The position numbers were made by a program, and so were the translations under genes. Under the pieces are notes generated by a model. It saw only the letters and a list, made by a program, of their open reading frames with translations, did not search any database and was not told the origin of the DNA. A stretch of DNA of 64,000 nt from Buttiauxella selenatireducens. Lineage in GTDB: Bacteria > Pseudomonadota > Gammaproteobacteria > Enterobacterales > Enterobacteriaceae. The first letter of the stretch is position 1; every line of letters starts with the position of its first letter. Shown here in pieces: positions 4,256 through 26,655 of the stretch. The stretch lies in contig NZ_CP133838.1 of NCBI RefSeq assembly GCF_031432975.1, positions 2,542,001 to 2,606,000 of the forward strand, in the 5' to 3' direction.

Positions 4256-4494
4256 TTATTCGATTAGATAGGGTAATCCGCTAGGGCTTATTAGTAACAT
4301 TCATCAATTGCCATTATCGGGATAGCCACTGATGCTAAATCAATGAGTTACTTGCAATGGCTTTGTCCAAAAGGGGGTTAGACCTCTTTATGACGTTTAT
4401 GAGGTAGAATTATCAAATCAATTGATATCGATCGAAAACTTACATTTATCGGTCGATGAAATTTTATGCTAATTGGCTGTATTCAGGGAAAATA

Positions 4495-5295
4495 ATGACA
4501 GTAAACCGCAATGCTGTGGCTGCGATGATCGCATTTTTGTTGTTCAGTACTTCTGTTTGCGCCGACATGGATCTCGGCTCTTTAGATATTCTGGCGAGAG
4601 ATAATCCGCAAAGCCCAGTGCCGAAAGGCTTTGTCGTCGGTGCTGCGGGACTGGGCGGGCAGGCTCGCTATCAGGGGCAGGATAACAGTACCTACCTGAT
4701 TCCTGGCGGCCTCTATTTTGGCGACCAACTGATGTATCTGGGCGACCGCGCTCGCTACTATTTTCATCTGGATGATAACGTGGCGCTGTATGGTTACGGA
4801 CGCTATCGCTTCGGGAATCTCGACCCGAGTGACGCTGATTCTCTGCATGGAATGCATAAGAGAAAAGGGGAGTTGGAAGCCGGCGTCGGTGGCACGATCA
4901 TTACGCCTTATGCATTGTTGAGCGCCCGTTTTGCCACGGATATCACCGGGCGCAGCAACGGACAAGAGCTGCTGTTGTGGGCTGATTTTCCGATTATCAA
5001 AGGCAATCTGCTAGTGATGCCGGGCATGGGGATGATGATCCGCAGCGATAAAATGGCGAATTACTACTTCGGTGGCGTCTCGTCAGCGGAAGCGACTCCA
5101 CAGCGTCAGGCCTGGGACACCGGGACCACGTTTTCACCGATGGCGGCGGTGGTCACCAGTTATCGTTTCAGCCCACACTGGATGGGCCTGTTTGCCGCCA
5201 ACTATGAACTGTACGACAAAAGTATTGCTGACAGTCCTATCGTTCAGCATAACGGCGAGTTATATGTCATTGCCGGTGTCGGCTATACCTGGTAG
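4495..5295 (+). CDS. MipA/OmpV family outer-membrane protein
   Basis: 266 residues with a cleavable signal peptide (MTVNRN... to about SVCA/D at residue 24) followed by alternating beta strands and a C-terminal aromatic residue (GVGYTW), as in outer-membrane barrels. The pattern fits the MipA/OmpV family, whose E. coli member scaffolds MltA with PBP1B. ATG 4495 has an AGGGAA site and places the basic/hydrophobic signal correctly; the longer frame from 4456 does not. It is the last gene before dif. Its specific role (scaffold or porin) is not evident. Confidence 0.82.
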   Translation: MTVNRNAVAAMIAFLLFSTSVCADMDLGSLDILARDNPQSPVPKGFVVGAAGLGGQARYQGQDNSTYLIPGGLYFGDQLMYLGDRARYYFHLDDNVALYGYGRYRFGNLDPSDADSLHGMHKRKGELEAGVGGTIITPYALLSARFATDITGRSNGQELLLWADFPIIKGNLLVMPGMGMMIRSDKMANYYFGGVSSAEATPQRQAWDTGTTFSPMAAVVTSYRFSPHWMGLFAANYELYDKSIADSPIVQHNGELYVIAGVGYTW

Positions 5296-5409
5296 CAAAC
5301 GAGCAGCGGGAAGAATGTTTACGTATGACGCAGTTACCGTTGCTCTGCAAAACAGGAAGGAGAGACAAATGACTTTGAGTGACCATAGAGGATGGTTACC
5401 AATTCTGTT

Positions 5410-5437
5410 ATTTAACATAATATACATTATGCGCACC
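5410..5437 (-). other. dif: dif, XerCD chromosome-dimer resolution site
   Basis: Read on the minus strand the 28 bp are a XerC arm GGTGCGCATAA, a 6-bp centre TGTATA and a XerD arm TTATGTTAAAT. This is identical to the E. coli dif sequence as I know it. It sits in a gap between a MipA gene and a small hypothetical gene, and is flanked by KOPS of converging polarity. It is where XerC and XerD, activated by FtsK, resolve chromosome dimers at cell division. The 170-bp gap holds nothing else certain; one short reading frame with a good ribosome site overlaps dif. Confidence 0.95.
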
Positions 5438-5464
5438 AAGGTAAGGTAAGACAGAATCCAGTGA

Positions 5465-5743
5465 TTAATCAGCCTCATTGCCCTGGTTGCTGATAGCCTC
5501 CGAAAGTTCCTTCTCCAGCATTGATACCGTCACTTTGGCCATCTCATCGTTCGACTGGTCACCACGACCGTTTTTCCAGGCATCACGCTCCCGGCGAGCT
5601 CGTTCCAGGTCATACTCAATTTTTTCGACTGTACGCATCGTTCTTCTTTCCTCAATAATCACTGGCCGTTCTGCCAGAAAATCTGCGTCCGTTTTATCAA
5701 CGGCGCTGTACGACAGCCAGTCATGACTTTGTTTATCTGACAT
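5465..5743 (-). CDS. Small charged hypothetical protein
   Basis: 92 residues, not recognised. It is rich in Glu, Arg, Lys and Asp with no membrane segment; residues about 35-85 look like a long amphipathic, coiled-coil-prone helix (EKIEYDLERARRERDAW, then VSMLEKELSEAI). A strong GGAGGG site 6 bases before ATG 5743 supports translation from there rather than from GTG 5746. It lies next to dif and is transcribed away from the OYE gene's stop. No function is claimed. Confidence 0.6.
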   Translation of the reverse strand: MSDKQSHDWLSYSAVDKTDADFLAERPVIIEERRTMRTVEKIEYDLERARRERDAWKNGRGDQSNDEMAKVTVSMLEKELSEAISNQGNEAD

Positions 5744-5952: not shown

Positions 5953-7071
5953 TTAAGCCAGGTTTTGTTGGGTATCGGACCAGAACGGATAGTCTGTATA
6001 CCCTTTTTCATCCCCGCCATACATAGTCGCCCAGTTGACCTCATTCAGTGGCCAGTCATTTGCCAGACGTTCTGCAAGGTCCGGGTTCGCAATATAAGGG
6101 CGACCAAAGCCGATCAGGTCGGCTTTTCCTTGCTGTAGATATTCCTCGGCGCGTTGCTTGTCAAACCCACCGGCAATAATCAACGAGCCGTCATATGCGG
6201 CGCGAAATTTCTCAATAAACCCGGCCGGAATTGCCTGTTCGCCAAGTGTTTGCTGGTCACTCAGATGAACATAGGAGAGAGAGCGTTGATTGAGTTTATT
6301 TGCCAGTAGTAGCCAGGTTTCTTCTTCACCATCAAAGGCATGCATATCAAACAAGCGGCCAAACGGTGCCAGACGAATACCCGTTTTACCTGCACCAATC
6401 GCCTGTGAGACGGCATCAGTCACTTCAAGCACAAAGCGAAGACGATTTTCAGGATCTGCACCACCGTATTCGTCCTGGCGGGTATTTAACCCTCCATTGA
6501 TAAACTGCTCAAGGAGGTATCCATTAGCGGCGTGTATTTCAACGCCATCAAAACCTGCCCGCATTGCATTTTTCGCAGCCCGGACGTAATCGTGAACGAT
6601 GTCCTTAATCTCAGCGACTGACAATGCGCGTGGTTCAGAGACCGGCACAGGGCCTGGCTGCCCTGCGTCATTGCGGGCATAGCAGGTTGAATTATTAGCT
6701 TTCACCGCAACTGAACTGACCGGAGACTGTCCGTCAATTTGCAGACTGTGATGAGAAATACGGCCAACATGCCAGAGCTGGATGTAAATTTTCCCGCCAG
6801 CGTCGTGTACTGCTTTCGTCGTCAGCTCCCAACCTTTAACCTGCTTCTCGTTATAAATTCCGGGAGTAAAGAGATAACCCTGCCCCTGCACGGATATCTG
6901 AGCCCCTTCCGTGATAATCAATCCTGCCGATGCACGCTGTTGGTAGTATTTTGCCGTCAGTTCGTCAGCGGTATCACCTACCGTTGCTCGTGATCGTGTC
7001 ATTGGTGCCATCACGACACGGTTTCGCAGTGTGGTGTCCCCGGCTTTGAAGGGGGTAAACAGCTTGTCCAT
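5953..7071 (-). CDS. Old Yellow Enzyme family reductase, NemA-like
   Basis: 372-residue FMN-dependent ene reductase, about the length of E. coli NemA (365). Landmarks: APMTRSRA near the N-terminus, HVGRISH, the His/Asn pair in EIHAANGYLLEQF for ligand binding, and the phosphate-binding IIAGGF and GFGRPYIANPDL at the C-terminus. It reduces activated C=C bonds or nitro compounds in the cytosol. ATG 7071 has an AAGGAGAT site; the frame continues upstream to 7359 but that part is non-coding in character. In E. coli nemA follows the repressor gene nemR; no TetR-type gene is adjacent here, although a palindromic operator lies upstream. Confidence 0.9.
   Translation of the reverse strand: MDKLFTPFKAGDTTLRNRVVMAPMTRSRATVGDTADELTAKYYQQRASAGLIITEGAQISVQGQGYLFTPGIYNEKQVKGWELTTKAVHDAGGKIYIQLWHVGRISHHSLQIDGQSPVSSVAVKANNSTCYARNDAGQPGPVPVSEPRALSVAEIKDIVHDYVRAAKNAMRAGFDGVEIHAANGYLLEQFINGGLNTRQDEYGGADPENRLRFVLEVTDAVSQAIGAGKTGIRLAPFGRLFDMHAFDGEEETWLLLANKLNQRSLSYVHLSDQQTLGEQAIPAGFIEKFRAAYDGSLIIAGGFDKQRAEEYLQQGKADLIGFGRPYIANPDLAERLANDWPLNEVNWATMYGGDEKGYTDYPFWSDTQQNLA
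6878..6885 (-). other. KOPS octamer
   Basis: CCCTGCCC on the + strand, i.e. GGGCAGGG on the minus strand. It is right of dif and points left toward it. Confidence 0.5.
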
Positions 7072-7122
7072 TTTTATCTCCTTTAAATAAAAGAACAATA
7101 ATGGTTGCTGTGATGCCGTAAG

Positions 7123-7153
7123 GGAACATCTGTATATTCCGAACAGATGTTCC
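7123..7153. promoter_or_regulatory. Palindromic operator upstream of the OYE gene
   Basis: Perfect 10-bp arms GGAACATCTG (7123-7132) and CAGATGTTCC (7144-7153) with an 11-bp spacer, centred about 67 bp before the OYE start codon, where a promoter would lie. The form fits a dimeric repressor such as a TetR/NemR-type or LysR protein. The cognate regulator is not encoded next door. Confidence 0.6.
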
Positions 7154-7245
7154 ATAAATTCTACTTTAACGCGCAGAATCCACCGAATTGCACAACAAGG
7201 TTGTGGGCTATTATGCGAACAAACATGGCTACTAATAAAGTGGCC

Positions 7246-7253
7246 CCCTCCCC
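7246..7253 (-). other. KOPS octamer
   Basis: CCCTCCCC on the + strand is a CCCTNCCC match, pointing left to dif 1.8 kb away. Confidence 0.5.
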
Positions 7254-7272
7254 TGAATTTGCATGAATTATA

Positions 7273-7400
7273 TTGACATGGATCATAAAACAGAAAAATA
7301 GCCACAGCAGTACATCCAATTGACACTAACATTTGGATCAATAAACAGTACATCCGCACCCACGGTCAGCAATTTCTGCATGTGGGTGATGGCGGTCACC
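7273..7400 (+). repeat. Degenerate tandem repeat and hairpins before the phosphoethanolamine transferase
   Basis: The 365-bp gap 7072-7436 holds the operator at 7123, a KOPS, and this block. The elements occur twice in the same order: TTGACA at 7273 and 7320, TGGATCA at 7279 and 7334, CAGTACATCC at 7308 and 7346. The TTGACA copies could be -35 boxes, but no good -10 follows. Two weak hairpins follow (CACCCAC/GTGGGTG at 7357-7388; GGTGA/TCACC at 7385-7400). Confidence 0.35.
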
Positions 7401-7436
7401 AACAACGATGCATCTTAGAATAAGTAGATAATAAAA

Positions 7437-8987
7437 ATGTATAAACCGTCATGGCTATATAGCAGAAAAGATATGTTTATTATATTAAAGGATAACTTAG
7501 CATGGGTTATTCCAGCGTTAATTTTATCGATACTTATTCCACTGAATACCGGGTATGAAAAACCCTTAAACATGGTGTTGACATTTATATCGCTATGTAT
7601 TGCAAGAAAAAACAAAATTGCTTTCTATCTGACGATAATTTCTTTTTTTATTATTTGCTTATACATCCCTATAGGACATGATTTTGGGCAGATTAGCTTT
7701 GGTTATATTGCCTCTGCGTTTCAAACGAATAAAGGTGAAATGACTGAATTCATAAAAAGCGTGAGCTCTAATGCTTTGCTGATATTTTCTATAAGCATCT
7801 TCTTTTTGATTTTATATGTTATTAAAGGTAAAGGGTTTAGTCAAAAATCAAGTCTTATTTATCTTCTTTTATTTTGCATTGTCAATGTAAAATCAATTCC
7901 AGCCAGAATGCTGGTTTCGACTATTGGTTACTCAAACCAGTATACGACGGAATTAAAGTCTCTTGAATCGCAGAAAAACATCCCTGATGACTTTACGACT
8001 TCCGACATTAAGAAAAAATATCAGAATATTGTCGTTGTTATAGGTGAAAGCGCTGGTAGAGATTACATGTCATTGTATGGTTATCAGCATGACACTACTC
8101 CATGGCTAAAAAATGCACCCGGTTATTTCTTCGCAAATTATATCTCTGCGGCCCCTGATACCTATCTTTCTCTGCCGAGAACAATGGCCATGACTAATGG
8201 TGATCACACTGATATTAAAAACAATATCGTCGCTCTGGCTAATAAAGCAGGTTTCAATACTTTCTGGATTTCCAATCAGGGTTATATTGGTGAATATGAT
8301 ACGCTATCAACCGTTATTGCAGAGTATGCACAGCATAAAACCTTCTTAAAAAAAGGGGATTTTGATTCAAACAATGCCGATGATATGCAACTGTTGGATG
8401 GTCTACAACAAATTGTAGATAATGAGCACAATCAAAAAGTTATCTTTATTCATATGATAGGTTCTCATCCTGATTCGTGTGAACGACTGAATGGTTTCCC
8501 GGTCAACTTCAATGTAAAAAACAATAAAGAAATAAACTGTTATCTGGCAAGCATTCAAAAACTTGATAGTTTTATCGAACGCGCAGTGTCAATCCTGAAG
8601 AATAAAGGAGAGAGTTATTCTCTTGTGTATTTTTCAGACCATGGATTGACTGTCAGGCAAACGTCTCGTCATTTAATCTTAGGTCAGGATGTTCAGTATA
8701 TCTTGTTTGGTAAGGATTCTCGCTCAGTTCTGCATGGTAGAGAATCAAAACAAAACTATAATGTCCCCTTCTTTATCATTGCCAGCGATATACTCACGCA
8801 CAAGACATATTATAACTACCTGAGCGCAAATAATTTCATGGCAATCTTTGAGTGGTTGGCAGGTTTTAATTCAAATAAAATTAAGCCGTTATCACCCATA
8901 GAACATTCAGATGAAAACGTGTCAATTTATGATGGCGAGGCGAGCATCCCTTATAACAGCCTGAAGGATAACGAAATCATTAAGTAA
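7437..8987 (+). CDS. Phosphoethanolamine transferase (EptA/CptA-like sulfatase fold)
   Basis: 516 residues: about five N-terminal membrane segments (to about residue 150), then a periplasmic alkaline-phosphatase/sulfatase-fold domain. Landmarks are VVVIGESAGRDYMSLYGY for the metal site, a Thr/Ser-rich stretch around PDTYLSLPR where the family's nucleophile Thr lies, HMIGSHP, and YFSDHG near the end. The family moves phosphoethanolamine from phosphatidylethanolamine to lipid A, core sugars or glucans; the acceptor is unknown here. The gene is clearly more AT-rich than its neighbours, suggesting horizontal gain. No good ribosome site precedes ATG 7437, and ATG 7473 is possible. A terminator follows directly. 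Confidence 0.82.
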   Translation: MYKPSWLYSRKDMFIILKDNLAWVIPALILSILIPLNTGYEKPLNMVLTFISLCIARKNKIAFYLTIISFFIICLYIPIGHDFGQISFGYIASAFQTNKGEMTEFIKSVSSNALLIFSISIFFLILYVIKGKGFSQKSSLIYLLLFCIVNVKSIPARMLVSTIGYSNQYTTELKSLESQKNIPDDFTTSDIKKKYQNIVVVIGESAGRDYMSLYGYQHDTTPWLKNAPGYFFANYISAAPDTYLSLPRTMAMTNGDHTDIKNNIVALANKAGFNTFWISNQGYIGEYDTLSTVIAEYAQHKTFLKKGDFDSNNADDMQLLDGLQQIVDNEHNQKVIFIHMIGSHPDSCERLNGFPVNFNVKNNKEINCYLASIQKLDSFIERAVSILKNKGESYSLVYFSDHGLTVRQTSRHLILGQDVQYILFGKDSRSVLHGRESKQNYNVPFFIIASDILTHKTYYNYLSANNFMAIFEWLAGFNSNKIKPLSPIEHSDENVSIYDGEASIPYNSLKDNEIIK

Positions 8988-8999
8988 TTGAGTTAACTG

Positions 9000-9028
9000 G
9001 CCAATATGAATTTTATATTGGCTTTTTT
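9000..9028 (+). terminator. Rho-independent terminator
   Basis: GCCAATAT/ATATTGGC stem (9000-9007, 9015-9022) with a 7-base loop, followed by six T, just after the phosphoethanolamine transferase stop. Confidence 0.85.
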
Positions 9029-9063
9029 ATTGGAAGTTAATTGGATATCCAAAACTCAAAACA

Positions 9064-9942
9064 CTAAAGATTACGAGTCTGACCAAGATAAGCCAGTACT
9101 GCACCACTGCTCTCATTTATACGGCTGACCATCATTAAATTCGCTGACAACTCTGGTGCATCTAAAACCCGATAGACAACGCCAGGAATAGCCACCTGAA
9201 CTAACGGCGCAGGAACCAGTGCGATTCCCAGCCCTGCACCGGCCATTGCGAGAACACTCAGCGTGCTGGAAATTCGATAAGCAATATGTAATTTATCACC
9301 CAGCAAGTTATGCAGCCCGGCGACTAAGTGCGACTCGACATCATCGACTGAGTAGAGAATCAATGGTTCATGCGCCAGCATATCAATTGTTAGCTTATTT
9401 TCAGCCACGAGCGGATGATCGCTACACATCACCACGACTCTTTCCCATTCCCCCACTGATTCATAGATAAGCGCAGAATGATGCTCTGGCTGGTAATCAG
9501 GCATATAACCCACATCCAGCGTTCCGCTCAGGATAGCCTCACTTTGCAGATGCGGAGCCATTTCCTGACAGAGCAATTCGGCATCAGGATAGGCATGATG
9601 AAATGAACGCATATCTTTCATCAATATTCCGCTGAACACCGCATTTCCCGCAAACCCCACCCGCACCCGTCCTGTTTCTCCACGCATTGAACGCTCTACA
9701 ACCAGACGCGCGTGCTCAACGCTATCCAGCGTACGTTTTGCCTCAACCTGCAAAAGTAATCCAGCCTCAGTAAGTTCGACTCGGCGACTGGTGCGGATAA
9801 ACAAAGGGCCACCAAGCTCCGTTTCCAGCGCTTTTATCTGCATACTCAATGCGGGTTGAACAATATTCAGGCGCTCGGCAGCCCGACCAAAGTGCCCTTC
9901 TTCAGCGACCGCTAAAAAGTATCGCAGGTGGCGTAATTCCAT
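9064..9942 (-). CDS. LysR-family transcriptional regulator
   Basis: 292 residues. The N-terminal winged helix-turn-helix reads MELRHLRYFLAVAEEGHFGRAAERL, split here as two short motifs: LRYFLAVAEE and QPALSMQIKALE. The C-terminal part is a type-2 periplasmic-binding effector domain. ATG 9942 gives the canonical MELRHLRYF start; the frame extends only four codons further. It is divergent from the NTF2-like gene with a 108-bp gap holding overlapping palindromes, the classic arrangement in which a LysR protein controls the divergent gene and itself. Confidence 0.9.
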   Translation of the reverse strand: MELRHLRYFLAVAEEGHFGRAAERLNIVQPALSMQIKALETELGGPLFIRTSRRVELTEAGLLLQVEAKRTLDSVEHARLVVERSMRGETGRVRVGFAGNAVFSGILMKDMRSFHHAYPDAELLCQEMAPHLQSEAILSGTLDVGYMPDYQPEHHSALIYESVGEWERVVVMCSDHPLVAENKLTIDMLAHEPLILYSVDDVESHLVAGLHNLLGDKLHIAYRISSTLSVLAMAGAGLGIALVPAPLVQVAIPGVVYRVLDAPELSANLMMVSRINESSGAVLAYLGQTRNL

Positions 9943-9956
9943 AAAGCGCTCCATCC

Positions 9957-9979
9957 ATCATTAAAAATGATTAATCATT
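9957..9979. promoter_or_regulatory. Overlapping palindromes in the LysR/NTF2 divergent gap
   Basis: ATCATT at 9957-9962 pairs with AATGAT at 9966-9971, which is also the left half of the perfect 14-bp palindrome AATGATTAATCATT (9966-9979). Three half-sites in alternating orientation next to the LysR start codon suggest the autoregulatory binding site. Confidence 0.55.
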
Positions 9980-10050
9980 CAATTCAATATATTTGAGTTT
10001 AACGTCTTTCGCGACCAAACTGAATCCAGTCAACTAACAGGAGTCAGAAC

Positions 10051-10632
10051 ATGCAAAACCAACTTCAGGATCGCCAGGCACTTAACGACCTTATAAATGG
10101 CTGGATGCACCGCGATCTCGGTGAATGGGAACAACTCCGCGAGTTATTCCATCCCGATGGCACAATTGAAATTACCTGGTTTGAAGGGCTGGGCAGTGAT
10201 TTCGTTGAAGGTTCAATGCGTATGGGGCAATCAGATGTACGAACCAAACACCTTATTGCGACGCCGACCATCACATTTAACGCCACCGGTACTAAAGCGA
10301 TTCTTGAAACCAATGCGATGATCATTGCTGAAAATGTAAAACTGAATCTGGGCTGTGAATGCCATAACCGGTTTTACGATAGGGTAGAAAAACGCGATGG
10401 GGTGTGGAAGCTGTCTCACCGCCAGAGTATTTACGATATGGGGACATTTACCTTCCCGATGGGCCTGGTGGAAATAGATCAGAGCGTCGTGGCGAAGTAT
10501 CCACGCGAATACGCAACGCTTGCCTACATACTGGAAAAGAGCGGATTCCCTGTTCAACGTGTGTTTGCCACACGAGGCAGTGTGCTGGAACAAGACATGA
10601 AACGTGATGCTAAAACATGGTTATCCCGTTAA
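10051..10632 (+). CDS. NTF2-like (SnoaL-type) domain protein
   Basis: 193 residues with a cystatin-like alpha+beta fold pattern. An N-terminal helix (DRQALNDLINGWMHR) is followed by FHPDGTIEITWF and a conserved central H/N region, as in SnoaL-like polyketide cyclases, ring-hydroxylating dioxygenase beta subunits and scytalone-dehydratase relatives. No signal peptide. An AGGAG site precedes ATG 10051. It is divergent from the LysR gene, which probably regulates it. The fold hosts many small-molecule enzymes; the reaction is unknown. Confidence 0.75.
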   Translation: MQNQLQDRQALNDLINGWMHRDLGEWEQLRELFHPDGTIEITWFEGLGSDFVEGSMRMGQSDVRTKHLIATPTITFNATGTKAILETNAMIIAENVKLNLGCECHNRFYDRVEKRDGVWKLSHRQSIYDMGTFTFPMGLVEIDQSVVAKYPREYATLAYILEKSGFPVQRVFATRGSVLEQDMKRDAKTWLSR

Positions 10633-10748
10633 GTCACTGTTCCTGATGGTATACGTAGCACGCCGTCCACCAGCTTACCCCCTTTAGATATGGAGCACTG
10701 ACGCAATGTTGCCGCTAACCGCTTTACTTCGTGCTCCCCTTATTTAAA

Positions 10749-10872
10749 ATGACTCACTTCATTTCTCCTCTATAGGTATTACGCCAATGCGCCATTGATG
10801 CTGCCGTCTGTCTGACGGTCAATTTATTGCCCCGTTTGTTCGGGTCAGTTTCTGGCATCTCTGGAGTACACA
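10749..10872 (+). promoter_or_regulatory. Candidate leader with short peptides before the ABC-F gene
   Basis: The 240-bp gap before the ABC-F gene holds two tiny frames: ATG 10749 encoding MTHFISPL and ATG 10798 encoding MLPSV. The second stop falls inside a CCGTC/GACGG hairpin (10804-10818). ABC-F genes are often controlled by ribosome-stalling leader attenuation, so the layout is suggestive, but no run of T marks a terminator form. Confidence 0.3.
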
Positions 10873-12495
10873 ATGACGAATACTTTTATCGCGCTTGAAT
10901 GCGTTGATTTCACATTACCTGACGGCACACCGCTGTTTTCGCAGCTCAATGAAACTTTTGACACTCGTCGTACTGGCCTCGTTGGGCGAAACGGCGTAGG
11001 CAAGAGCGTTCTGTCGCAGATTTTAGCCGGGCAAATTCAGCCTTCGTCCGGGCGTTGCACCCGTTCGGGTTCCACATGGTATCTGGCGCAACAGATTGAC
11101 TATCCCGCAGAGGCCACTGTTGCACATCTTGCCGGTGTGCAGCCCACGATTGACGCGCTCGATCGCATCGAAATGGGCAGCGTGTCTGAGGACGATTTTG
11201 ATATCGTTGGCCATCACTGGGATATCCGCCAGCAGCTACAGCTTGAGCTGGAAAAATCCGGGCTCGGGCATCTTGACGCATCGACCCCGGTTAGCCAGTT
11301 AAGCGGAGGCGAAGCGATGCGTGTCTCATTGGTCGGCGCCTGGTTATCTGAGGCTGATTTTCTAATTCTTGATGAGCCAAGCAATCATATCGACAGTACA
11401 TGGCGGCAAACTTTGATTAACCAGTTACAGCGCTGGTCCGGCGGATTGTTGGTGGTAAGCCATGATCGGGAGTTGCTGGGATCCATGCAGCGAATTGTTG
11501 AACTGTCATCATTAGGCTTGAGTCATTATGGCGGTAACTATTCTTTCTACGCACAGCAAAAGGCGCAAGAGACGCAAAATGCCCTGCAACTGCTTGAGCA
11601 ACGCAAACGCGAGCGCCTGCGCGAACAAAAAGCCCTGCGCGAGCAGAAGGAGCGCCTTGAGAAGCGGCAATCGCGAGGGAATCGGCAAGGACGCGAGGCC
11701 AATCAAGCCAACATTTTACTCGGTGGGCAAAAGCAACGCAGTGAAGCGTCTGCGGGGAAACTGAATCAGCAACATCTTGCCGCACAGGCGTTACTCGATA
11801 AACGGGTGCAGGAAGCAGCGAACCAAGTGGATGAAAATGCGACGATCGTGGTGCACGCTTTGGCGGTAAATTCGCCTTCTAAGCGCCGGGTTGCCGAGCT
11901 CCAGAATGTACAACTGCCCTTCGTAGCCAACTTCCCTTCCCCTTTGAATTTGACGATTACCGCCCAGCAGCGCATTGGCATTGTCGGGAATAATGGATGT
12001 GGTAAGTCGACATTAGTCAAAGTGCTGGCAGGTCAGATTCAGCCATTGTCCGGGGAGTCACGTGTCTCACACGGTCACGCCTGGCTTGATCAACATCTCA
12101 CAAACCTCGATCCTGAGCGTACCGTTCTGGAACAGATGCTGGACGCCAACCGCTCGGCGGGTGAAGCTGATTTACGCATGCGGTTGGCACAACTGGGCCT
12201 TGATGCTGACAAAATCCAGACCGCCAGTGGGTTGCTGAGCGGAGGCGAGCGCCTGAAAGCCGCGCTGGCCTGTGTGCTGTATGCCGATCCTACCCCACAA
12301 CTCTTATTGCTGGATGAACCCAGTAACCACCTGGATTTACCTTCAATTCAGGCGCTGGAAGCCATGCTTTGTCGTTACCAGGGCGCGCTAGTGGTTGTTT
12401 CGCATGATGCGGTATTTCTACAAAACCTGAATTTAACCGACAGGTTAACCCTAACTGAAGATGGCTGGCATCTTCGTGCCTGGGGGCTTTCATGA
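10873..12495 (+). CDS. ABC-F family ATPase
   Basis: 540-residue soluble protein with two ABC cassettes and no membrane domain. Cassette 1: Walker A GRNGVGKS (38-45), signature LSGGE, Walker B FLILDEPSNH. Cassette 2: Walker A GNNGCGKS (372-379), LSGGER, LLLLDEPSNH. Between them lies a highly charged, Arg/Glu/Gln-rich coiled linker, the P-site tRNA-interaction motif of ABC-F proteins, which act on ribosomes in translation rescue or antibiotic protection. It is related to but not the same as Uup, EttA, YheS or YbiT, so the exact role is open. It converges with the glucan synthase, the two stops overlapping by 6 bp. A GGAG site precedes the ATG. Confidence 0.88.
   Translation: MTNTFIALECVDFTLPDGTPLFSQLNETFDTRRTGLVGRNGVGKSVLSQILAGQIQPSSGRCTRSGSTWYLAQQIDYPAEATVAHLAGVQPTIDALDRIEMGSVSEDDFDIVGHHWDIRQQLQLELEKSGLGHLDASTPVSQLSGGEAMRVSLVGAWLSEADFLILDEPSNHIDSTWRQTLINQLQRWSGGLLVVSHDRELLGSMQRIVELSSLGLSHYGGNYSFYAQQKAQETQNALQLLEQRKRERLREQKALREQKERLEKRQSRGNRQGREANQANILLGGQKQRSEASAGKLNQQHLAAQALLDKRVQEAANQVDENATIVVHALAVNSPSKRRVAELQNVQLPFVANFPSPLNLTITAQQRIGIVGNNGCGKSTLVKVLAGQIQPLSGESRVSHGHAWLDQHLTNLDPERTVLEQMLDANRSAGEADLRMRLAQLGLDADKIQTASGLLSGGERLKAALACVLYADPTPQLLLLDEPSNHLDLPSIQALEAMLCRYQGALVVVSHDAVFLQNLNLTDRLTLTEDGWHLRAWGLS
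11934..11941 (-). other. KOPS octamer
   Basis: CCCTTCCC on the + strand, pointing left to dif. Confidence 0.45.
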
Positions 12496-15400
12496 TTCTG
12501 CCCCGAGTCTTATCTCTACGTCATGGCTGTTGCCGTCATCAATTAACGGGATAGTGTCCCCACTTAGCTCGACACCATTAAGCAAGACCCGGTACTCCCC
12601 GTCACTGCGCATGACGTTGATGCGGTAATAGCTGTTGCCATGTTGATAAACGAGGCTGACAGACGGCCAGTCGCGTGGTAGCAAGGTATGGACGGAGATG
12701 GCGTCGCCGTGGCGCTCAATGCCCAACAGCGTGTCGACAATTAGCCGGTATGCCCAACCAGCAGAACCGGTATACCAGCTCCAGCCGCCGCGTCCGGTAT
12801 GAGGTGCAACGCTATAAATGTCCGCAGTCATGACGTACGGCTCCACTTTATAACGCTCAATCGCATCCGGCGTCAGGCTGTGATTGATGGGGTTTATCAT
12901 CGCCCAAAGCTGCCAGGCGCGTTCAATATTGCCGCTGCGAGCAAAAGCCATCACCGCCCAGATAGCACCGTGGGTATATTGCCCGCCATTTTCGCGTACA
13001 CCGGGTAGGTAGCCCTGAATATAACCCGGATTTGGCCCATGACCGTTAAACGGTGGGGTAAGCAATTTAATCAACCCAGCTTCAGGTTCGACCAGGCGAG
13101 CATCCAGCGCTTGCATCGCTTGCGTGCAACGATCGGCACTTCCCGCGCCGGATAACACTGACCAACTCTGGGCGATGGCATCTATCTGGCACTCTTTAGC
13201 AAGGTGCGAACCTAACGCTTCCCCGCTATCAAAATAGCCACGACGATACCAGGTTCCGTCCCAGGCGTGGGTCTCGAGGTTTTTTTGCAGTTTTGCCGCT
13301 TCTTCCCGACATAACATCGCGGTTTCATGTTCATTGATTTGCCCGGCAAGCTTCCCGAAACGCTGCATCACATCGTAGAGGAAGAAGCCGAGCCACACGC
13401 TTTCGCCCTTTCCTTCCAGCCCGACCAGGTTCATGCCATCGTTCCAGTCCCCCGCGCCCATTAATGGCAAACCGTGCTGACCCAAGCGCAGACCATGCCG
13501 TATGGCCTTAACGCCGTGCTGCCAGAGTGTCTCTTCAAGGGCGCTGATCACCGGTTGTTCATAAGCCGACTCTTCTCCCGCCAGCAATTCACGCCCTTCC
13601 AGATATGGCAAACGATGCTCAAGCAAGCCGATGTCACCGGTTGTCTCGACGTAATGGCAAATAGCGAGCGGTAGCCACAGATAATCATCCGAGCAACGGG
13701 TGCGCACGCCGTTACCTAACGGTGGATGCCACCAGTGTTGCACGTCGCCTTCAACAAACTGGCGTGATGCGCAGAGTAAAATCTGATCGCGCAGTCGTTC
13801 TGGGGCGGCGTGACTCAGGGCCAGGGTGTCCTGCAACTGGTCGCGGAAACCAAACGCCCCGCCGGACTGGTAGTAACCGCTACGCGCCAGAATGCGACAA
13901 GCGATGGTCTGGTAGAGCAGCCAGCCATTGGCCAGCAAATTGACCGCAGGGTCCGGGGTGGACACGACGATTTTATCCAGCATTTTGTGCCAGTAGCGGT
14001 GCACATTCGCCAGTTCAGCGCGGGCCGCCTCCTCGTTCATATACTGGTTAATCATTGATTCCGCGTCCTGCGGATTTTGACCTATCCCCAGCACAAAGAT
14101 AAAGCTGCGCTGGTCGCCATCAATCAGCGTGGTGGCCGACTGCACTGCGCCACACGGATCCAGCCCTGCACCGGTTTTATCTGACAATGTGCGCATTTTC
14201 ATTGCGGCGGGTTCGCTTTGTGAACCGTTACGCCCCAGAAACTCTCGCCTGTCGCCGGTGACTGAGCAATGCACGCCCGTCACCGCAAAGAAGGCCGTCC
14301 GCTCTGAGCCATTGCTACTGTAGAAGTTATTCGCCAGCACGCCACAGCCGCGTCCGGTGGTGGACGCCCGCGTAATGACATGCATCGCTGATTTGTTGCG
14401 TGATTCCCCCAGCGTCCACTCCACATAGCCGGTCACTGATATCTTACGGGTACGCCCCGAGGTATTACTGAGCGTCAGGATGGCGATTTTTACGGGTGCT
14501 TGTTCCGCCACCAGCACCGTGAGCTCCGTGTCGATACCCGTTTCGCGATGGGCAAACACGCTGTAACCAAAACCGTGACGCGAAAGATAGTGTCCCGTTC
14601 CGCGCACGGGTAGCGTGGTCGGCGACCACACTAACCCGCTCTCTTCATCACGAAGATAAAACGCCTCACCGGAACGATCGCTAATGGGATCGTTTTCCCA
14701 TGGCGTGAGTCGATATTCATGGGCATTTTCAGACCAGGTGTAGGCCTGCCCGGCTTCTGAAATCACCGAACCAAAACTGGCGTTAGACAGCACATTGGCC
14801 CACGGTGCAGGTGTCCTGTCGTTTTCACCCAGCGTGATTTGGTATTCGCGACCATCCTCAGAGAACCCGCCGCGACCATTGAAATAGACCAGATCACCAG
14901 TATCCGGTTGCCACGGTTCGTGTTGATTCATGGGCAACCCAACGTGTGGCACAAAGGGCTGTTGCGAGGATGTTGTGGCCTGGAGCCGTTGGTTAAGCTG
15001 CTCTTTCAGGCCACCAGATCGGTCATCCAGTACGATTTGCGCCACACTCAGCAACAGCAGCCGGTCCTCCGCCGACATATGTTCGCCGTTACGCACGAAA
15101 ATGCCACCGGGTTTATCCATCTGGCTCGCTTCTGAGCCTGCGACAATCAGCTCAACAATCTGATTCTGTAGCTCCTGTTGGTAGCCGCCCAGACTGTCAT
15201 TGAGGATGACCAGATCCACCGCAAGCCCTTTGAGACGCCAGTAATGGTGCGCCTGGATCAGGGTGGTAATCAGCAAGATGCTTTCATCGCTGGTGACATT
15301 AAGAATGACAATCGGTAAATCGCCCGAGATAGACCATCCCCACAGGCCAGACTGCCCGCGACGATTACGCGCCAGGGTTTTGGCATCCGCACGCAGTTCA

Positions 15401-17595
15401 GGACCGGGGAACAGCACTGCGCTGGCAAGGCGGTTAAAGAGCGTGGCGTCATCTTCGTTGGCATTAATCTGGCGCAACACAATCTGGCTATGTGACCACG
15501 CCAGTTCAAATACGCGATCGGCTATCGGATGGTCGTGATATTTCTCAATCAGCGCCTGGCTATGCTGACGGCTTTCCGTCACGCCATAAATAATGTCGAC
15601 GGTCACCGGTAAGCCGGGTTGCAACACAATCGACTGGCGAATGGACAGGATGGGGTCCAGCACCGGCCCAACACTGTTACTGAGTGAACCGCTTTGTTCC
15701 GTCGCCTGTGCATTCGCGGGCGTTCTGCCCCGCCCAAGGAATTTTGCCCGGTCAGTTTCAAATGTGCTTTCGTTTTGCGTCTGCCCATGTACAACCAGGG
15801 TATGAAACATCCACGGGCAACTCTCATTGGGTGAACGCGGGCGACGGTGGCAAAGAATGGCATTCTGCTGCGCAACAAGTTCGGTCTGAATAAATAAATT
15901 GCTGAATGCAGGGTGCGCCAAATCACTCTCAAATGGCGCGAGAACCACTTCGGCGTAAGTGGTCAATTCTATGGTGCGCGGCTGGCGTCCACGGTGCAGC
16001 AACGTGACGCGGCGTAGCTCAATATCATCTTCAGGTGAGACAACAATCTGCGTTTTCACATTGATTGTCCCGGCCACCCGTTTGAATTCCGCACCTGCGT
16101 CGGTAAAGATGACGTCGTACTGACTAACCGGTTCGCCAAGCGGTTGCCAGGTATTGCTCCATACTTCATCAGTTGCCGGGTCGCTGATATAGCAAAATGC
16201 GCCCCAGTTATCGCATGTCGCATCGCTGCGCCAGCGTGTCAGCGCCACATCTTTCCAGCGACTGTAACCGCCGCCGGACTGGCTCACCATCAAGTGATAA
16301 TCCGCATTCGACAGCAGTTGAATTTCTGGGATCAGACTATCAACGTCAGTAAATTCACGGGTTTCATACTGGACAGGCTGGAGCACCCCTTCATGGGACT
16401 CAAAGTGACGGCGCGGACTATAAAGCTCAATAGCATCAGGAACACGCTCTTGTAACAACAGACGAGCCGATTGAAACGCGGGGCTGGACATAAAACGATC
16501 CACCATCGGTGCTCCCAGTAGCACATGAGATAATGCCTGGAATGCCATTCCCTGATGGTGCGCCATCCATGAACGAACAACCGCATACATCTGGCCACTG
16601 GCAAGGCGCGACGGTGTGTAATCCAGCGCCTCGTAAAAACCGTACTCACCCCGAGCGCCGCTTTTCTCCAGTTTCAGCAGATTTTCACAGGCTTTGTGTG
16701 GCGCAATGGTCAGCGCCATCATCGTCGCATAAGGCGCAATAACCATATCATCGGCAAGCCCACGTCGCAGGCCCAGTCCCGGCACACCAAACGCGTGATA
16801 CTGGTAATTTTGCAAGGCGTCAAAAGAGTAGTAGCCCGACTCCGATATCCCCCACGGCACGCCGCGCTCTTTGCTCCAGTCAATCTGGCGTTTTACCGCC
16901 GACTGGCTCATCTCTTCAAGTAAGCTGCCGGGATAAGTGGGCATGACCAGGTTCGGCATCAGATATTCAAACATCGAACCGCTCCAGGACATCAGCGCGG
17001 TTTCGTTATCGATGGTGGTGAACAACCGCCCTAACGCGAACCAGCTTTTCAGCGGCAGTTGGTTAGTGGCAATCGCCAGAAAACTGGTGAGTCGAATTTC
17101 CGATGGCAGCAGGTCGTAATGGCTGTTGTCGAGCTTATTATTGTCGCAGTTGTACCCGACGCTCAGCAGGCTGGTCACTTCGTTGTACAGGAAGACAAAA
17201 TCCATCCGCGCATGTTCATGCAAGCGCAGTTCCAGTTCAGTAATGATATCCAGACGGGTGCGGGCCTGACGGATAGCCGACTCCGACGGCGATCCCTCGC
17301 CGGTATGTTTGGCCTGAGCAAGCCAGGTTACCCCCGGCAATGGTTTCGTGTCCCAATCTGGCGGAAGCCAACTGAGAAAACTCGTCCATTCATGGCAAAC
17401 AAGGACTAACTGGTGCTGAAGCATGTCTACCCAGCGGCGCACCTGCGCACTCTCATGGCTGCACAGCGCATGCAGGCGATTGCATTGCGCCCGCATATTT
17501 TTCAGTTCAGCAAACAGTAATGACGGTTGCAGCGTCAGGGCCGTGTTGCAATGGTTACGTAGCTGGCGCAAAGACGTTGGCGCATTCTGCCCCAA
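12490..17595 (-). CDS. Cyclic beta-1,2-glucan synthase, C-terminal part (frameshifted)
   Basis: About 1,700 residues matching the C-terminal two-thirds of NdvB/Cgs (full length near 2,850). In order: a glucoamylase-like domain (EYLMPNLVMP, ESGYYSFD, VPGLGLRRGL, WMAHHQGM), a carbohydrate-binding domain (GGGYSRWKDVALTRW), then a GH94/GT36 phosphorylase-like domain with GFRDQLQD, WWHPPLGNG and GAGDWNDGMN (catalytic Asp, about 1,382) and GGWSWYTGSAGW. In Cgs this domain sets glucan chain length. The frame has only a TTG near 17595 and no ribosome site. The sequence continues the upstream frame after a -1 shift at an A6-T3-G4 run (17602-17590 on the minus strand), so the two frames were or are one gene. 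Confidence 0.85.
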   Translation of the reverse strand: MGQNAPTSLRQLRNHCNTALTLQPSLLFAELKNMRAQCNRLHALCSHESAQVRRWVDMLQHQLVLVCHEWTSFLSWLPPDWDTKPLPGVTWLAQAKHTGEGSPSESAIRQARTRLDIITELELRLHEHARMDFVFLYNEVTSLLSVGYNCDNNKLDNSHYDLLPSEIRLTSFLAIATNQLPLKSWFALGRLFTTIDNETALMSWSGSMFEYLMPNLVMPTYPGSLLEEMSQSAVKRQIDWSKERGVPWGISESGYYSFDALQNYQYHAFGVPGLGLRRGLADDMVIAPYATMMALTIAPHKACENLLKLEKSGARGEYGFYEALDYTPSRLASGQMYAVVRSWMAHHQGMAFQALSHVLLGAPMVDRFMSSPAFQSARLLLQERVPDAIELYSPRRHFESHEGVLQPVQYETREFTDVDSLIPEIQLLSNADYHLMVSQSGGGYSRWKDVALTRWRSDATCDNWGAFCYISDPATDEVWSNTWQPLGEPVSQYDVIFTDAGAEFKRVAGTINVKTQIVVSPEDDIELRRVTLLHRGRQPRTIELTTYAEVVLAPFESDLAHPAFSNLFIQTELVAQQNAILCHRRPRSPNESCPWMFHTLVVHGQTQNESTFETDRAKFLGRGRTPANAQATEQSGSLSNSVGPVLDPILSIRQSIVLQPGLPVTVDIIYGVTESRQHSQALIEKYHDHPIADRVFELAWSHSQIVLRQINANEDDATLFNRLASAVLFPGPELRADAKTLARNRRGQSGLWGWSISGDLPIVILNVTSDESILLITTLIQAHHYWRLKGLAVDLVILNDSLGGYQQELQNQIVELIVAGSEASQMDKPGGIFVRNGEHMSAEDRLLLLSVAQIVLDDRSGGLKEQLNQRLQATTSSQQPFVPHVGLPMNQHEPWQPDTGDLVYFNGRGGFSEDGREYQITLGENDRTPAPWANVLSNASFGSVISEAGQAYTWSENAHEYRLTPWENDPISDRSGEAFYLRDEESGLVWSPTTLPVRGTGHYLSRHGFGYSVFAHRETGIDTELTVLVAEQAPVKIAILTLSNTSGRTRKISVTGYVEWTLGESRNKSAMHVITRASTTGRGCGVLANNFYSSNGSERTAFFAVTGVHCSVTGDRREFLGRNGSQSEPAAMKMRTLSDKTGAGLDPCGAVQSATTLIDGDQRSFIFVLGIGQNPQDAESMINQYMNEEAARAELANVHRYWHKMLDKIVVSTPDPAVNLLANGWLLYQTIACRILARSGYYQSGGAFGFRDQLQDTLALSHAAPERLRDQILLCASRQFVEGDVQHWWHPPLGNGVRTRCSDDYLWLPLAICHYVETTGDIGLLEHRLPYLEGRELLAGEESAYEQPVISALEETLWQHGVKAIRHGLRLGQHGLPLMGAGDWNDGMNLVGLEGKGESVWLGFFLYDVMQRFGKLAGQINEHETAMLCREEAAKLQKNLETHAWDGTWYRRGYFDSGEALGSHLAKECQIDAIAQSWSVLSGAGSADRCTQAMQALDARLVEPEAGLIKLLTPPFNGHGPNPGYIQGYLPGVRENGGQYTHGAIWAVMAFARSGNIERAWQLWAMINPINHSLTPDAIERYKVEPYVMTADIYSVAPHTGRGGWSWYTGSAGWAYRLIVDTLLGIERHGDAISVHTLLPRDWPSVSLVYQHGNSYYRINVMRSDGEYRVLLNGVELSGDTIPLIDDGNSHDVEIRLGAES

Positions 17596-20500
17596 ATTTT
17601 TTCAAGTATCTGCAACGAGTCGTCGATGCCCAGCAGCACCTGGGTGCAATCAAGAATCGGTTGGTTGCGCAGCTCAGTTAAACCGGCACTCAGGGTGAGC
17701 AAATGACCTGCCATATTGCCGCTATCCACGCTGGAGATATAACGCGGGTTAAGCGGTTGCAGGGTGCGAGTGTCGTACCAGTTATACAAATGGCCGCGGA
17801 AATGCTCCATTTTATCCAGCGTGTCGAGGGTGAGCGTGATCCGCTGCAACATCTCCCCTTGCGGGATGTAGCCGAAATCCCAGGCGGTCAGGTTGGACAT
17901 CAACGACAGACCGATATTGGTGGGTGACGTGCGATGCGCAATCACCGGTTGTGGGATTTCCTGGTAGTTATCCGGCGGTAGCCAGTTTTCTTTCGCAGTG
18001 GCAAACGTTTCAAAAAAGGCCCAAATTTCGCGGCTACTTTGTCGCAACAGACGTTTTTGAGCGGCGCTAAAAGTGACAGTGTTACGTTTTGGCTCGCGGC
18101 TTAACACGCTCAGCAGCGCGGGAGCCAGGCACCACAGCAAGCCAATCGGTAGAGCAAAAAACAGCATCATCGGCGCCAGCAATGCCACGAGCACAATCAG
18201 CGCGACACCTGAAATCACGTTCAGCCACATCGCCTTATAGAAGCGTAATGCTGACGTTTTGCTGTCCTCGTTGCTTTGGTCAAAACTGGCCCATTGATTG
18301 AGGTTGCGATGACTCACCCCGAGCCGCCATAGCGTCACCACAATGGCTTGCAAGGAATAACCCGCTTCATGGGGAAGTGACGCAAACCCGAGGCCAATAC
18401 GCATCAGGCGTTTAAGTCCTCCCGAAGCGACTAATAACAAGTGTTGAAGAAAAGGTCTGCGGGCAGGTTTGTTAATCAGATCCTGGGCAATCACCAACAC
18501 GGTTGGGAGCAGCAGCACAACCGCCAGCACGCCGAGCCAGAAAAGCGGATTAGGCACCAGTAAAAGGGAGCAAAACAATATTATCAGCAGTGATGGAGCC
18601 ACCAGACTGCGGCGCAAGTTATCCAGCAGTTTCCAGCGAGAAAGCGTGGTTAGCGGGTTTTTATCACGAGTCCCATCAGCCCTTCTGACGTTAATTTTCA
18701 GCCAGTTAAGCAGTTGCCAGTCTCCGCGAATCCAACGGGTACGCCGCGCAGTATCCGTCAGATAATTATTGGGATATTGCTCATAGAGCAGGACTTCGCT
18801 AAGTAAACCCGAACGGGCATAGCAACCTTCCAGCAAATCATGACTCAGCACTAAGTTTTCTGGGCAAGTATTCAGAGTGGCTTGCACAAATGTGCCGACA
18901 TCATAAATCCCTTTGCCCACAAACGAGCCTTCACCAAACAGATCCTGATAAATATCCGACGACATCATCGAATACGGATCATTGCCCGGCACGCTGCTGC
19001 ACATGGCGGCATATCGCCCCTGCCCGTTACGCGGGATCTCCTCCGCCAGTCCAGGCTGCAAAATGCCGTAGCCTTTCACAACACGCTGTTTAATCGGGTC
19101 GTAGATCGGATGATTAAGCGGATGTGCCATGGTCGCGACCAGTTTATGTGCCGTATCGCGGGGAAGCACTGTGTCACTGTCGAGAGTAATGACATATTTA
19201 ACCCCTGCCGGTGGGCTAATAGCCGTGTTGTGCACGTCGCGGAATTGAGTCTCAGGCTGATGTAACCAATTGTTCAACAGCGATAACTTGCCACGTTTTC
19301 GCTCATACCCCATCCATACGCCCTGTTGTGGATTCCACTGGCGCGAGCGATGGAGCAGGAAGAAAAGCGGCTGTGCAACGGGCGCGTAACGGCGATTCAG
19401 ATTCTGCATTTGTGCTTCAGCCCAGTGCAGAAGGTCGTTATCCCCGGCAGAGTTTTCATCCGTCGAATCGGCAAAATCGGTTAACAGTGCGAAGTACAGA
19501 TGGGGGGTTTTATTACCGAGATAACAAATCTCAAGACTATTGAGCAGTTTGTCGATTCCGGCTCGGCTGGTCAGCAAGCAAGGGATCACCACCATGGTAC
19601 AAAATTCAGCAGGGATACCGCTTGAGAAATCCATACGCGGCAACGGCATCGGCAAGCGGAAACGGGTCGTTGTCTCATTGAGTAAATTGATGGCTAACTG
19701 GCTTACGATCACCACCAGCGGCAAAGCAAGGAGGAGTAACAGTGGCCAGCTCAACCCATGTTCATAAGTGCGCGATAAAATGTCGGCGCAGAACGCCGTC
19801 GTCAACAGGCTTAGGCTTCCCAGCCAGCTCAGCAACGGGGTCTGATTAAAGGCATGGCGCAGACGAACGACCCACGACGTATTGGCCGCGAGTTGCTCTT
19901 CGAGTTCTGGCCGCCCTTCACCAATAAGGTAAAAGCCAACATGTTGAGCGGGCGTTGCCGGGTCTGCCGCTTGCGCCATTCCCAGGATGTGCCGCGCCAC
20001 TTCTGGTTCACTGGAGCGACTGTGGCGCGCGAGGATCTCAATAATATGTCGATAGTGATCGCGGGTATCAAAATGCATAGCCGGGTAAATTCCCGACGGG
20101 TCTTCCCGCATCGTTTGTTCAACCAGGCTCATGGCTTCGGCAAAATCAGCCCAGTTAGTTTCACTTAGCAGGCGCAAACCGGCGATGCTGTTGCTGACGG
20201 AAAGCTGACTTGCGGCAAGCTGCTGGTTGAAACGATGAATCAGGTAATCGGTGGTGACGCCTGTTTCTGCAAGCCGCTGTTCGACCCAGGTCAGGGGCAA
20301 AGAAAGCATATTGCCCCGCCCCTGCAAGCGACGCACCAGTTCTGCCACGAAGGCACTGCTCAAAGGTGGGCGGGAACGCGCCATATCGGCAATCACCATG
20401 ATCAAATCCGCTGGCGTGCTTTCGGCGCATTCAAAAATTCGCGTCACCCAAACATCGGCCAGGTTACGCTCTTTTTGTGCTTCCGCGACTTCGATACTGA

Positions 20501-21092
20501 CACGACGTAAATTTTCTATCAGTGCCAGGCGCAACATACCCGGCAGAGCCCAAAGTTCACCCAGCGTTAAAGGAGTCACTTGCTGATAAGCTGCAATATA
20601 GCTCGTCAGACTCGCGGCATCCCAACGCCCGTCGGCATGAGCAATGGCTTCGGAAGCAATATCATAAATACGTGGGCAATTATGCGGCGGAGTCAGCGGC
20701 GGCAAGCCTTTGCCGAAGTTCTTTGGCAGATGGTGGCGGACCACACGGATCTGCTCTTCAATCAGATAGTAGTTATCCAGCAGCCACTCACCCGCAGGGG
20801 TAATGCCCGATTTCTCTCCAGCATTGAGCAGGTAGCAGTTGCGGGTAATGATCGCTTCGTTATCCTCCAGACGCTTGAGCAAATAGTAAGGCATCTTAGC
20901 GGGAGATAACTTATGGGAACGCGCCAGTTTTTGGCCATAACGTTCCATTTGAGCCGCAGAAAACAGCTCGGCTTTTATTGGGCTTTCATTAGTGGAGCCA
21001 GCGGACAGCCAGCCAGGCGTTTCAGGATGAAGCTCCCGTGGTTTACTCGAGGTAAACCACGGTTTAAAATTTAATTTCATGAATATGCTCAT
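17535..21092 (-). CDS. Cyclic beta-1,2-glucan synthase, N-terminal GT84 part (frameshifted)
   Basis: 1,185 residues. Membrane segments occur near 410-470 and 815-990 and flank a family-84 glycosyltransferase domain: VVIPCLLTS, the LDSDTVLP metal site (about 635), SHDLLEG and RWIRGDWQ (about 787, the Q-x-x-R-W equivalent). It uses UDP-glucose to build beta-1,2-glucan in the inner membrane for periplasmic export, for osmotic adaptation. The last roughly 17 codons are out-of-frame junk; without the shift it would read on into the glucoamylase and phosphorylase domains. ATG 21092 has no clear ribosome site; ATG 21080 is an alternative start. Such synthases are typical of Rhizobiales and patchy in enterobacteria. 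Confidence 0.85.
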   Translation of the reverse strand: MSIFMKLNFKPWFTSSKPRELHPETPGWLSAGSTNESPIKAELFSAAQMERYGQKLARSHKLSPAKMPYYLLKRLEDNEAIITRNCYLLNAGEKSGITPAGEWLLDNYYLIEEQIRVVRHHLPKNFGKGLPPLTPPHNCPRIYDIASEAIAHADGRWDAASLTSYIAAYQQVTPLTLGELWALPGMLRLALIENLRRVSIEVAEAQKERNLADVWVTRIFECAESTPADLIMVIADMARSRPPLSSAFVAELVRRLQGRGNMLSLPLTWVEQRLAETGVTTDYLIHRFNQQLAASQLSVSNSIAGLRLLSETNWADFAEAMSLVEQTMREDPSGIYPAMHFDTRDHYRHIIEILARHSRSSEPEVARHILGMAQAADPATPAQHVGFYLIGEGRPELEEQLAANTSWVVRLRHAFNQTPLLSWLGSLSLLTTAFCADILSRTYEHGLSWPLLLLLALPLVVIVSQLAINLLNETTTRFRLPMPLPRMDFSSGIPAEFCTMVVIPCLLTSRAGIDKLLNSLEICYLGNKTPHLYFALLTDFADSTDENSAGDNDLLHWAEAQMQNLNRRYAPVAQPLFFLLHRSRQWNPQQGVWMGYERKRGKLSLLNNWLHQPETQFRDVHNTAISPPAGVKYVITLDSDTVLPRDTAHKLVATMAHPLNHPIYDPIKQRVVKGYGILQPGLAEEIPRNGQGRYAAMCSSVPGNDPYSMMSSDIYQDLFGEGSFVGKGIYDVGTFVQATLNTCPENLVLSHDLLEGCYARSGLLSEVLLYEQYPNNYLTDTARRTRWIRGDWQLLNWLKINVRRADGTRDKNPLTTLSRWKLLDNLRRSLVAPSLLIILFCSLLLVPNPLFWLGVLAVVLLLPTVLVIAQDLINKPARRPFLQHLLLVASGGLKRLMRIGLGFASLPHEAGYSLQAIVVTLWRLGVSHRNLNQWASFDQSNEDSKTSALRFYKAMWLNVISGVALIVLVALLAPMMLFFALPIGLLWCLAPALLSVLSREPKRNTVTFSAAQKRLLRQSSREIWAFFETFATAKENWLPPDNYQEIPQPVIAHRTSPTNIGLSLMSNLTAWDFGYIPQGEMLQRITLTLDTLDKMEHFRGHLYNWYDTRTLQPLNPRYISSVDSGNMAGHLLTLSAGLTELRNQPILDCTQVLLGIDDSLQILEKIWGRMRQRLCASYVTIATRP

Positions 21093-21263
21093 CGGGCGAG
21101 GTGAACGCGCAGGAGCAGTTGTTCAATCAGATCAGAAACGTTCTCTCAGGATGAAGTGACAGGCATCAGGGATTTAACAGCTGCAAGATTCTTTACAGTA
21201 TAGGTTAAGATTTGTACAGATTTGCGGGAATAGCTTGCCGAATACCGTCTCTGACAAGAGGGA

Positions 21264-21428: not shown

Positions 21429-21562
21429 GATGATTAGCCATTTCAATGAATGAGGTTCATCGTATCACGCCCTGAACAAATAGCGCACAAGTTATCCTGT
21501 GCCATCTGTCTTCGGGCGGATATGGCTACAACAACGGCAATTGGGCATTCAAAAACGCTGAA

Positions 21563-22729: not shown

Positions 22730-22894
22730 GCTTCAACCTATAACATATTTCACGGGTACCTATATTTATCGGTGATATTGATGAGAAATCCAGTGAGCAA
22801 ATAAAATCGAAGCTAAATACTGACATAAGCAAATGAAATAGTCATTTACACTTCCTTACATCATGCGCCGGGTGCAGAGGGACAAAAAAAGCAT

Positions 22895-22922: not shown

Positions 22923-22930
22923 AAAATGTG

Positions 22931-26652: not shown

Positions 26653-26655
26653 TGT

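Follow-up and report, generated by a model that had tools for sequence, protein, structure and literature searches.

A chromosomal dif site in Buttiauxella selenatireducens and a conserved stretch on its XerC side

A 28-bp sequence in the chromosome of Buttiauxella selenatireducens, identical to the dif site of E. coli K-12, is almost certainly the chromosomal dif of this bacterium, at which dimers would be resolved by XerCD and FtsK as in the E. coli system. The site itself is ordinary and of an already known kind; the less expected part of the locus is the stretch beside it, where a conserved pattern of about 45 bp on the side of the XerC arm is well supported by the comparison of dif loci within the Enterobacteriaceae, and where the pattern of conservation makes a function plausible. 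The window analysed is a stretch of 64,000 nucleotides (bases 2,542,001-2,606,000 of the contig), and the coordinates of its features are collected in Table 1.

Table 1. Features of the window around dif, in window coordinates
Feature	Position	Strand	Basis
MipA-family gene	4456..5295	+	PF06629, E 1.6e-36
XerD-side spacer, MipA to dif	5296..5409	.	of 12 genus genomes, window:5290-5409 matched only its own
dif, 28 bp	5410..5437	-	identical to E. coli K-12 dif
XerD-binding arm	5410..5420	-	place within the 28-mer; assigned by the E. coli site (PMC2731167)
6-bp central region TGTATA	5421..5426	-	place within the 28-mer
XerC-binding arm	5427..5437	-	place within the 28-mer; assigned by the E. coli site (PMC2731167)
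XerC-side flank, -1 to -45	5438..5482	-	conserved, at a constant distance from dif, across dif loci of the Enterobacteriaceae
IHF-like 13-mer AATCCAGTGATTA	5455..5467	+	candidate; agrees with WATCARNNNNTTR at 8 of its 9 specified positions
92-aa hypothetical protein	5465..5743	-	no Pfam match
Two KOPS left of dif	268-275, 2676-2683	+	motif scan of window
Seven KOPS right of dif	6878, 7246, 11934, 19018, 35237, 42908, 46827 (span 6878..46834)	-	motif scan of window
Three exact matS sites	30561-30573, 31841-31853, 44211-44223		motif scan of window

The first-pass annotation of this DNA had read the 28-mer as an E. coli dif with no visible difference, and its coordinates, its orientation and all 28 bases are borne out. 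The minus strand from 5437 to 5410 reads GGTGCGCATAATGTATATTATGTTAAAT, which is the sequence listed for E. coli K12 in a table of PMC2731167 and also the dif of the K-12-like record NZ_CP152466. It is the only match with up to three mismatches in the window, any match at all being found in 0 of 100 shuffles, and also the only one in the complete chromosome, a single contig of 5,218,828 bases (5.22 Mb). A second perfect dif elsewhere, accompanied by the skew switch, had been named as the finding that would speak against this identification, and it is absent. Among related genomes, dif is present, at up to three mismatches, in 12 of 12 genomes of the genus and in 120 of 198 genomes of the family; the 78 family genomes without it are, as read off the table, smaller than 2.5 Mb in 71 cases and larger than 3 Mb in seven. 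In E. coli, 4,790 of 5,426 genomes match, exactly and without a break, 28 or more of the 30 bases formed by dif and one base on each side. The literature search returned no match pairing Buttiauxella with 'dif site'.

Several markers of the terminus region surround the site. KOPS, searched as GGGNAGGG, are not more numerous in the window than expected by chance (nine, a number reached in 8 of 100 shuffles). Within 200 kb on each side of dif, all 14 copies to the left lie on the plus strand and all 13 to the right on the minus strand, the polarity flip falling between 2,544,676 and 2,548,878, a bracket of 4.2 kb around dif. Along the chromosome, 70 stretches were sampled, all of 20 kb except one of 18.8 kb: 34 on the left of dif, 34 on its right as far as 5.18 Mb, and two beyond. 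Those on the left held 37 plus and 3 minus KOPS, and the 34 on the right 35 minus and 5 plus. GC skew was positive in 33 of the 34 left stretches; of the 34 on the right, 33 were negative. The exceptions are the 20-kb stretch adjoining dif on the left (-0.006) and a positive stretch at 2,727,437. Both stretches past 5.18 Mb are positive, which points to an origin-side switch near that position; dnaA is located at base 16 of the contig, and the point opposite the switch, calculated with the switch as a stand-in for oriC, falls near 2.57 Mb, at a distance of some 23 kb from dif. The expectation of a skew switch at 5.4 kb of the window held in part: the absence of a switch, which would have refuted it, did not occur and the sign changes within about 25 kb of dif, but the cumulative maximum lies about 25 kb to its left, on a broad plateau.

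All 18 exact matS sites, 10 to the left and 8 to the right of dif, fall between 2.166 and 3.147 Mb. Opposed exact Ter 12-mers are located at 2,363,394 (minus strand) and 2,776,564 (plus strand), 184 kb left and 229 kb right of dif, the latter 37 bp before the tus gene, and these inner sites enclose a fork trap of about 413 kb; two further exact 12-mers far to the right, at 3.39 and 3.80 Mb, count against a tidy picture. Ter matches with one mismatch were disregarded because the reversed control matched more often (12 and 17, against 4 and 11 with exact matches included). Taken together, the uniqueness of the site, the KOPS flip, the skew switch, the matS domain, the opposed Ter sites with tus and the location close to the point facing the origin-side switch make the identification as chromosomal dif secure. 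The further statement that the terminus is thereby fixed to a base was too strong, since dif fixes the site of dimer resolution and forks can meet anywhere in the wide trap. The extent of the trap, the broad and displaced skew maximum and the conclusion drawn in PMC3025954 that replication terminates at a site other than dif all indicate that the terminus is a region and not a base. The strand bias of genes, described as mostly plus on the left and mostly minus on the right, is present as a weak trend: greedy ORFs of at least 100 aa over 400 kb number 98 plus and 67 minus on the left and 63 plus and 82 minus on the right, and those in the window 4 and 2 on the left, where it spans only 5.4 kb, and 16 and 25 on the right.

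The genome encodes XerD and the FtsK gamma domain (FtsK_gamma), each with a profile match over the cut-off, and the tus gene already mentioned. The second-best match to the XerD model, with 274 bits and below the cut-off of that model, is probably XerC. By analogy with E. coli, XerC and XerD would bind the two arms of dif. Once the sister chromosomes have been linked into a dimer by an odd number of crossovers, septal FtsK would track KOPS along both chromosome arms up to dif and touch XerD, which would lead to strand exchange around the 6-bp centre and leave two monomer chromosomes ahead of cell division.

The conserved XerC-side pattern emerged from a comparison of 119 dif loci, aligned without gaps. 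In the family, 122 places were listed, of which 30 were already represented by loci, 80 of the other 92 were added and 12 were left out, contig ends and second sites being among the reasons; 121 loci became 119 when L105 and L137 were dropped as too short, and the 119 include a second-replicon site (L116) and a K-12-like locus from the E. coli collection (L144). The flank consensus is AAAacgccaGATTcc.cCta.....AC.TT, reaching the XerC arm, and the flanks of the window and of K-12 have ACTGGATTCT in common at the same distance from dif. Over 60 bp on the XerC side, the column information of the 65 loci without blastn similarity at -460 to -61 adds up to 18.6 bits, against 2.6 (sd 0.27) when the flanks are randomly shifted; on the XerD side, that of 90 loci filtered likewise adds up to 8.5 bits against 2.2. 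A stricter clustering by DNA and protein gave 48 clusters, the largest of 47 loci, with one representative each; L144 is among the representatives, which hold no Buttiauxella locus, so that the window flank is tested only by its score within its own genome. A leave-one-out matrix spanning -45 to -6 ranked the true place first among about 5,100 positions of the same locus in 27 of the 48 and within the top 1% in 37, the element being absent by this last measure from 11. The equivalent XerD-side matrix (+6 to +45) gave 4 and 6, and the controls gave 0 and 5 (-105 to -61) and 0 and 3 (+61 to +105). With the five bases next to dif added, the figures rose to 34 and 40 on the XerC side and stood at 4 and 28 on the XerD side, a gain which implies constrained bases there too, chiefly T at +5.

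When 1.40 Mb of its own genome was scanned with a matrix free of Buttiauxella, the dif flank was the best place (23.3, the next 20.5), as it was with a matrix that included this locus (27.3 against 20.0); L187, which contains non-ACGT letters, was excluded from the own-genome matrix scans and from the repeat-copy scan described below. Outside the family, the true place was in the top 1% in 2 of 26 loci from six other families. Conservation is uneven between columns, with T at -18 in 39 and A at -28 in 38 of the 48 representatives but no base at -8 in more than 19, and past -60 the XerC-side DNA differs among them. A search judged mainly from titles and the beginnings of abstracts found no description of this flank, and PMC2731167 reports high variability outside the 28-mer across Proteobacteria. 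Four large-plasmid stretches, chosen from matches, comprised one with an exact dif and a K-12-like element, one with an element of the same class, one of a second class and one with none. The second class was also seen in five loci (L107, L108, L138, L220 and L221), where the XerC-side flank carries, close to dif, the direct repeats AATGAGCC and ATTGAGCC at a spacing of about 22 bp; a variant of this class stands beside the site of a 307-kb plasmid (L256).

It may be, and we put this forward tentatively, that the natural dif of the Enterobacteriaceae is larger than 28 bp: an element some 45 bp long, at a fixed distance on the XerC side, retained despite change further out and found beside plasmid sites too, would bind a host protein, with IHF as the best guess, and would shape or limit recombination by XerCD, leaving the XerD side free for insertion and exchange. 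A somewhat less probable explanation is that the conserved stretch is a remnant not kept by selection, old sequence that stays next to the XerC arm while insertions at dif renew the XerD side. Turnover on the XerD side is real in E. coli, where K-12 dif with 46 bp of its XerC side is covered to at least 80% in 4,836 of 5,426 genomes and dif with 45 bp of its XerD side in 3,520 (the genomes not being independent), and 9 of 40 among the matches listed for the XerD-side query start at dif itself. The 48 loci also have common ancestry, one of the clusters holding 47 loci. A remnant would, however, have to account for fixed columns near dif that are kept while their neighbours vary, although the XerC side differs past -60, and a shared coding end does not provide the reason, an ORF of at least 60 aa covering the flank in only 12 of the 48 representatives and in none of the other 36. 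The uneven columns and the fixed distance favour a protein-binding site over a remnant.

Flanks are exchanged at dif, as a separate case shows: a chromosomal dif locus (L129) and two large plasmids (L256 and L257) have more than 60 bp of XerD-side flank in common but differ on the XerC side, as in a mosaic with its joint at dif.

As an addition to the dif reading, it has been considered that the XerC-side flank binds a DNA-bending host protein which would shape or limit XerCD recombination, with IHF as the best candidate; this is unlikely as it stands, and IHF as the binder is a guess. The fixed distance and the uneven columns are what such binding would leave. Against the IHF consensus WATCARNNNNTTR (PMC8407004, PMC9820253), the opposite strand agrees best, among 96 registers, at -30 to -18, with a mean of 5.58 of 9 positions, compared with 3.15 (sd 0.56) across registers and 4.44 for the best on the XerD side. 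At least 7 of 9 positions agree in 12 of the 48 loci and at least 6 in 30; the window and K-12 each match at 8. Columns -24 to -27, where the consensus has NNNN, are less constrained than both neighbours. The conserved motif nevertheless amounts to about one trial, for which the estimated chance of 8 of 9 is 66 registers x 0.0009 = 0.06; for the flank consensus, which agrees at 7 of 9, it is about 0.4; because so many registers were tried, the match is weak evidence. Also contrary to IHF, the A expected at position 5 of the consensus is usually missing, no fit is seen in the second flank class (L107, L220), and PMC8407004, a study of IHF binding across the genome, names neither dif nor hipA in its main text. 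A further objection comes from the minimal site, a dif of 28-33 bp being functional without its flanks.

Other readings of the flank were tried and rejected. One conserved gene whose 3' end forms the flank is not the answer: phmmer finds the 92-aa protein in only 6 of 119 loci, its own included, and the largest protein cluster near dif spans 17 loci. RNAalifold predicts no pairs in the flank, a result that says little because column-shuffled controls gave no pairs either. Repeated cassettes with older copies further outward are not supported, with 91 secondary matches above a score of 10 compared with 65 in one shuffle, and 0 full copies; one of the 91 is the flank of L211 itself shifted by one base. 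An inverted near-copy of the flank was seen about 50-93 bp outside the XerC arm in E. coli (L144, score 19.8) and in a relative (L153, 21.9), the shuffle maximum being 19.7.

The neighbourhood of dif is as first annotated, with a MipA gene ending at 5295 on one side and the minus-strand ORF of 92 aa ending at 5465 on the other. Among the 22 loci found, the closest MipA relative (99% identical) is that of Buttiauxella sp. A111, and a genome counted as the same species (G009) has this locus as well, which places the host in Buttiauxella. In A111, homology extends on both sides of dif but is broken beside it: the interval from MipA to dif measures 105 bp here, against about 2.3 kb of different sequence in A111, and the XerC sides have about 0.5 kb in common at 91% before an additional 1.5 kb in A111. 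In 12 of 12 genus loci, A111 and one second-replicon site included, the match at dif starts at its XerD end (5407-5410) and extends into the XerC side, by at most 5 bases in six of them. Filamentous phages integrate at enterobacterial dif (PMC7307601, PMC2731167), and such integration is a sufficient known cause of the flank asymmetry. That the window site is itself an attachment-site copy brought by a Xer-using mobile element, such as a filamentous prophage or a large plasmid, and not the native dif, is highly improbable and largely refuted: the start of homology at the XerD end is the pattern expected after integration at dif, but the genome has no second dif-like site at up to three mismatches, the three adjacent ORFs gave no convincing phage family against PHROGs (best E 0.024), and the KOPS flip, the GC skew and the matS sites are as expected of a native dif. 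No mobile element was recognised beside dif among seven proteins of the window compared with Pfam and these three ORFs compared with PHROGs.

Compared with known systems, the locus resembles that of E. coli K-12 in its identical 28-mer, KOPS flip, matS domain, Ter sites and tus, and differs in its neighbours, which in K-12 are hipA and a fimbrial cluster. The dif-like sites (xrs) of large enterobacterial plasmids are likewise 28-bp sites, under FtsK control (PMC11724359), and three of the four plasmid stretches looked at have an XerC-side flank of either class, whereas the window site is chromosomal; PMC11724359 treats the sites of large replicons as lacking recognisable accessory sequences. 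In cer and psi, additional DNA that matters also lies on the XerC-arm side; cer, however, has about 180 bp with PepA and ArgR, and psi has PepA and ArcA (PMC5357621), while the stretch described here is about 45 bp.

Further dif-like sites were observed on other replicons. The same site with intact arms and a TCTATC centre (two changes) occurs in two genera (L116, G003:C2:91482-91509, on a second contig of 152 kb, and G197:C20:57765-57792), and this centre should prevent recombination with the chromosomal dif. Large phages of about 120-149 kb (for example MN850642, KP869102, JN882284 and MN732867) from several host genera carry a dif-like site of about 93% over some 30 bases, among the best 30 of 138 records, and in Erwinia phage Hena1 the site is annotated within the direct terminal repeat. 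Two genomes of another family (f27) have inverted dif-like pairs, at G271:C8:41734 and 43133 (1.4 kb apart) and at G341:C1:2405236 and 2405903 (0.7 kb), where XerCD could flip the intervening segment. On a single contig, two identical dif-like sites that point the same way (G277:C1:2201 and 2427162) possibly flank an element inserted at dif. Three records of the plasmid collection (NZ_CP141089, NZ_CP134663, NZ_OL790696) look misfiled because they are chromosome-sized (4.8-4.9 Mb) and have an E. coli dif flank.

The position of dif offers a reliable landmark for the terminus region of this chromosome. If the XerC-side flank is functional, the minimal dif of many assays would lack a natural part, and the control of dimer resolution and of the phages and plasmids that target dif would deserve a renewed look; E. 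coli K-12 carries the same element between hipA and dif, so that its role may be tested directly there.
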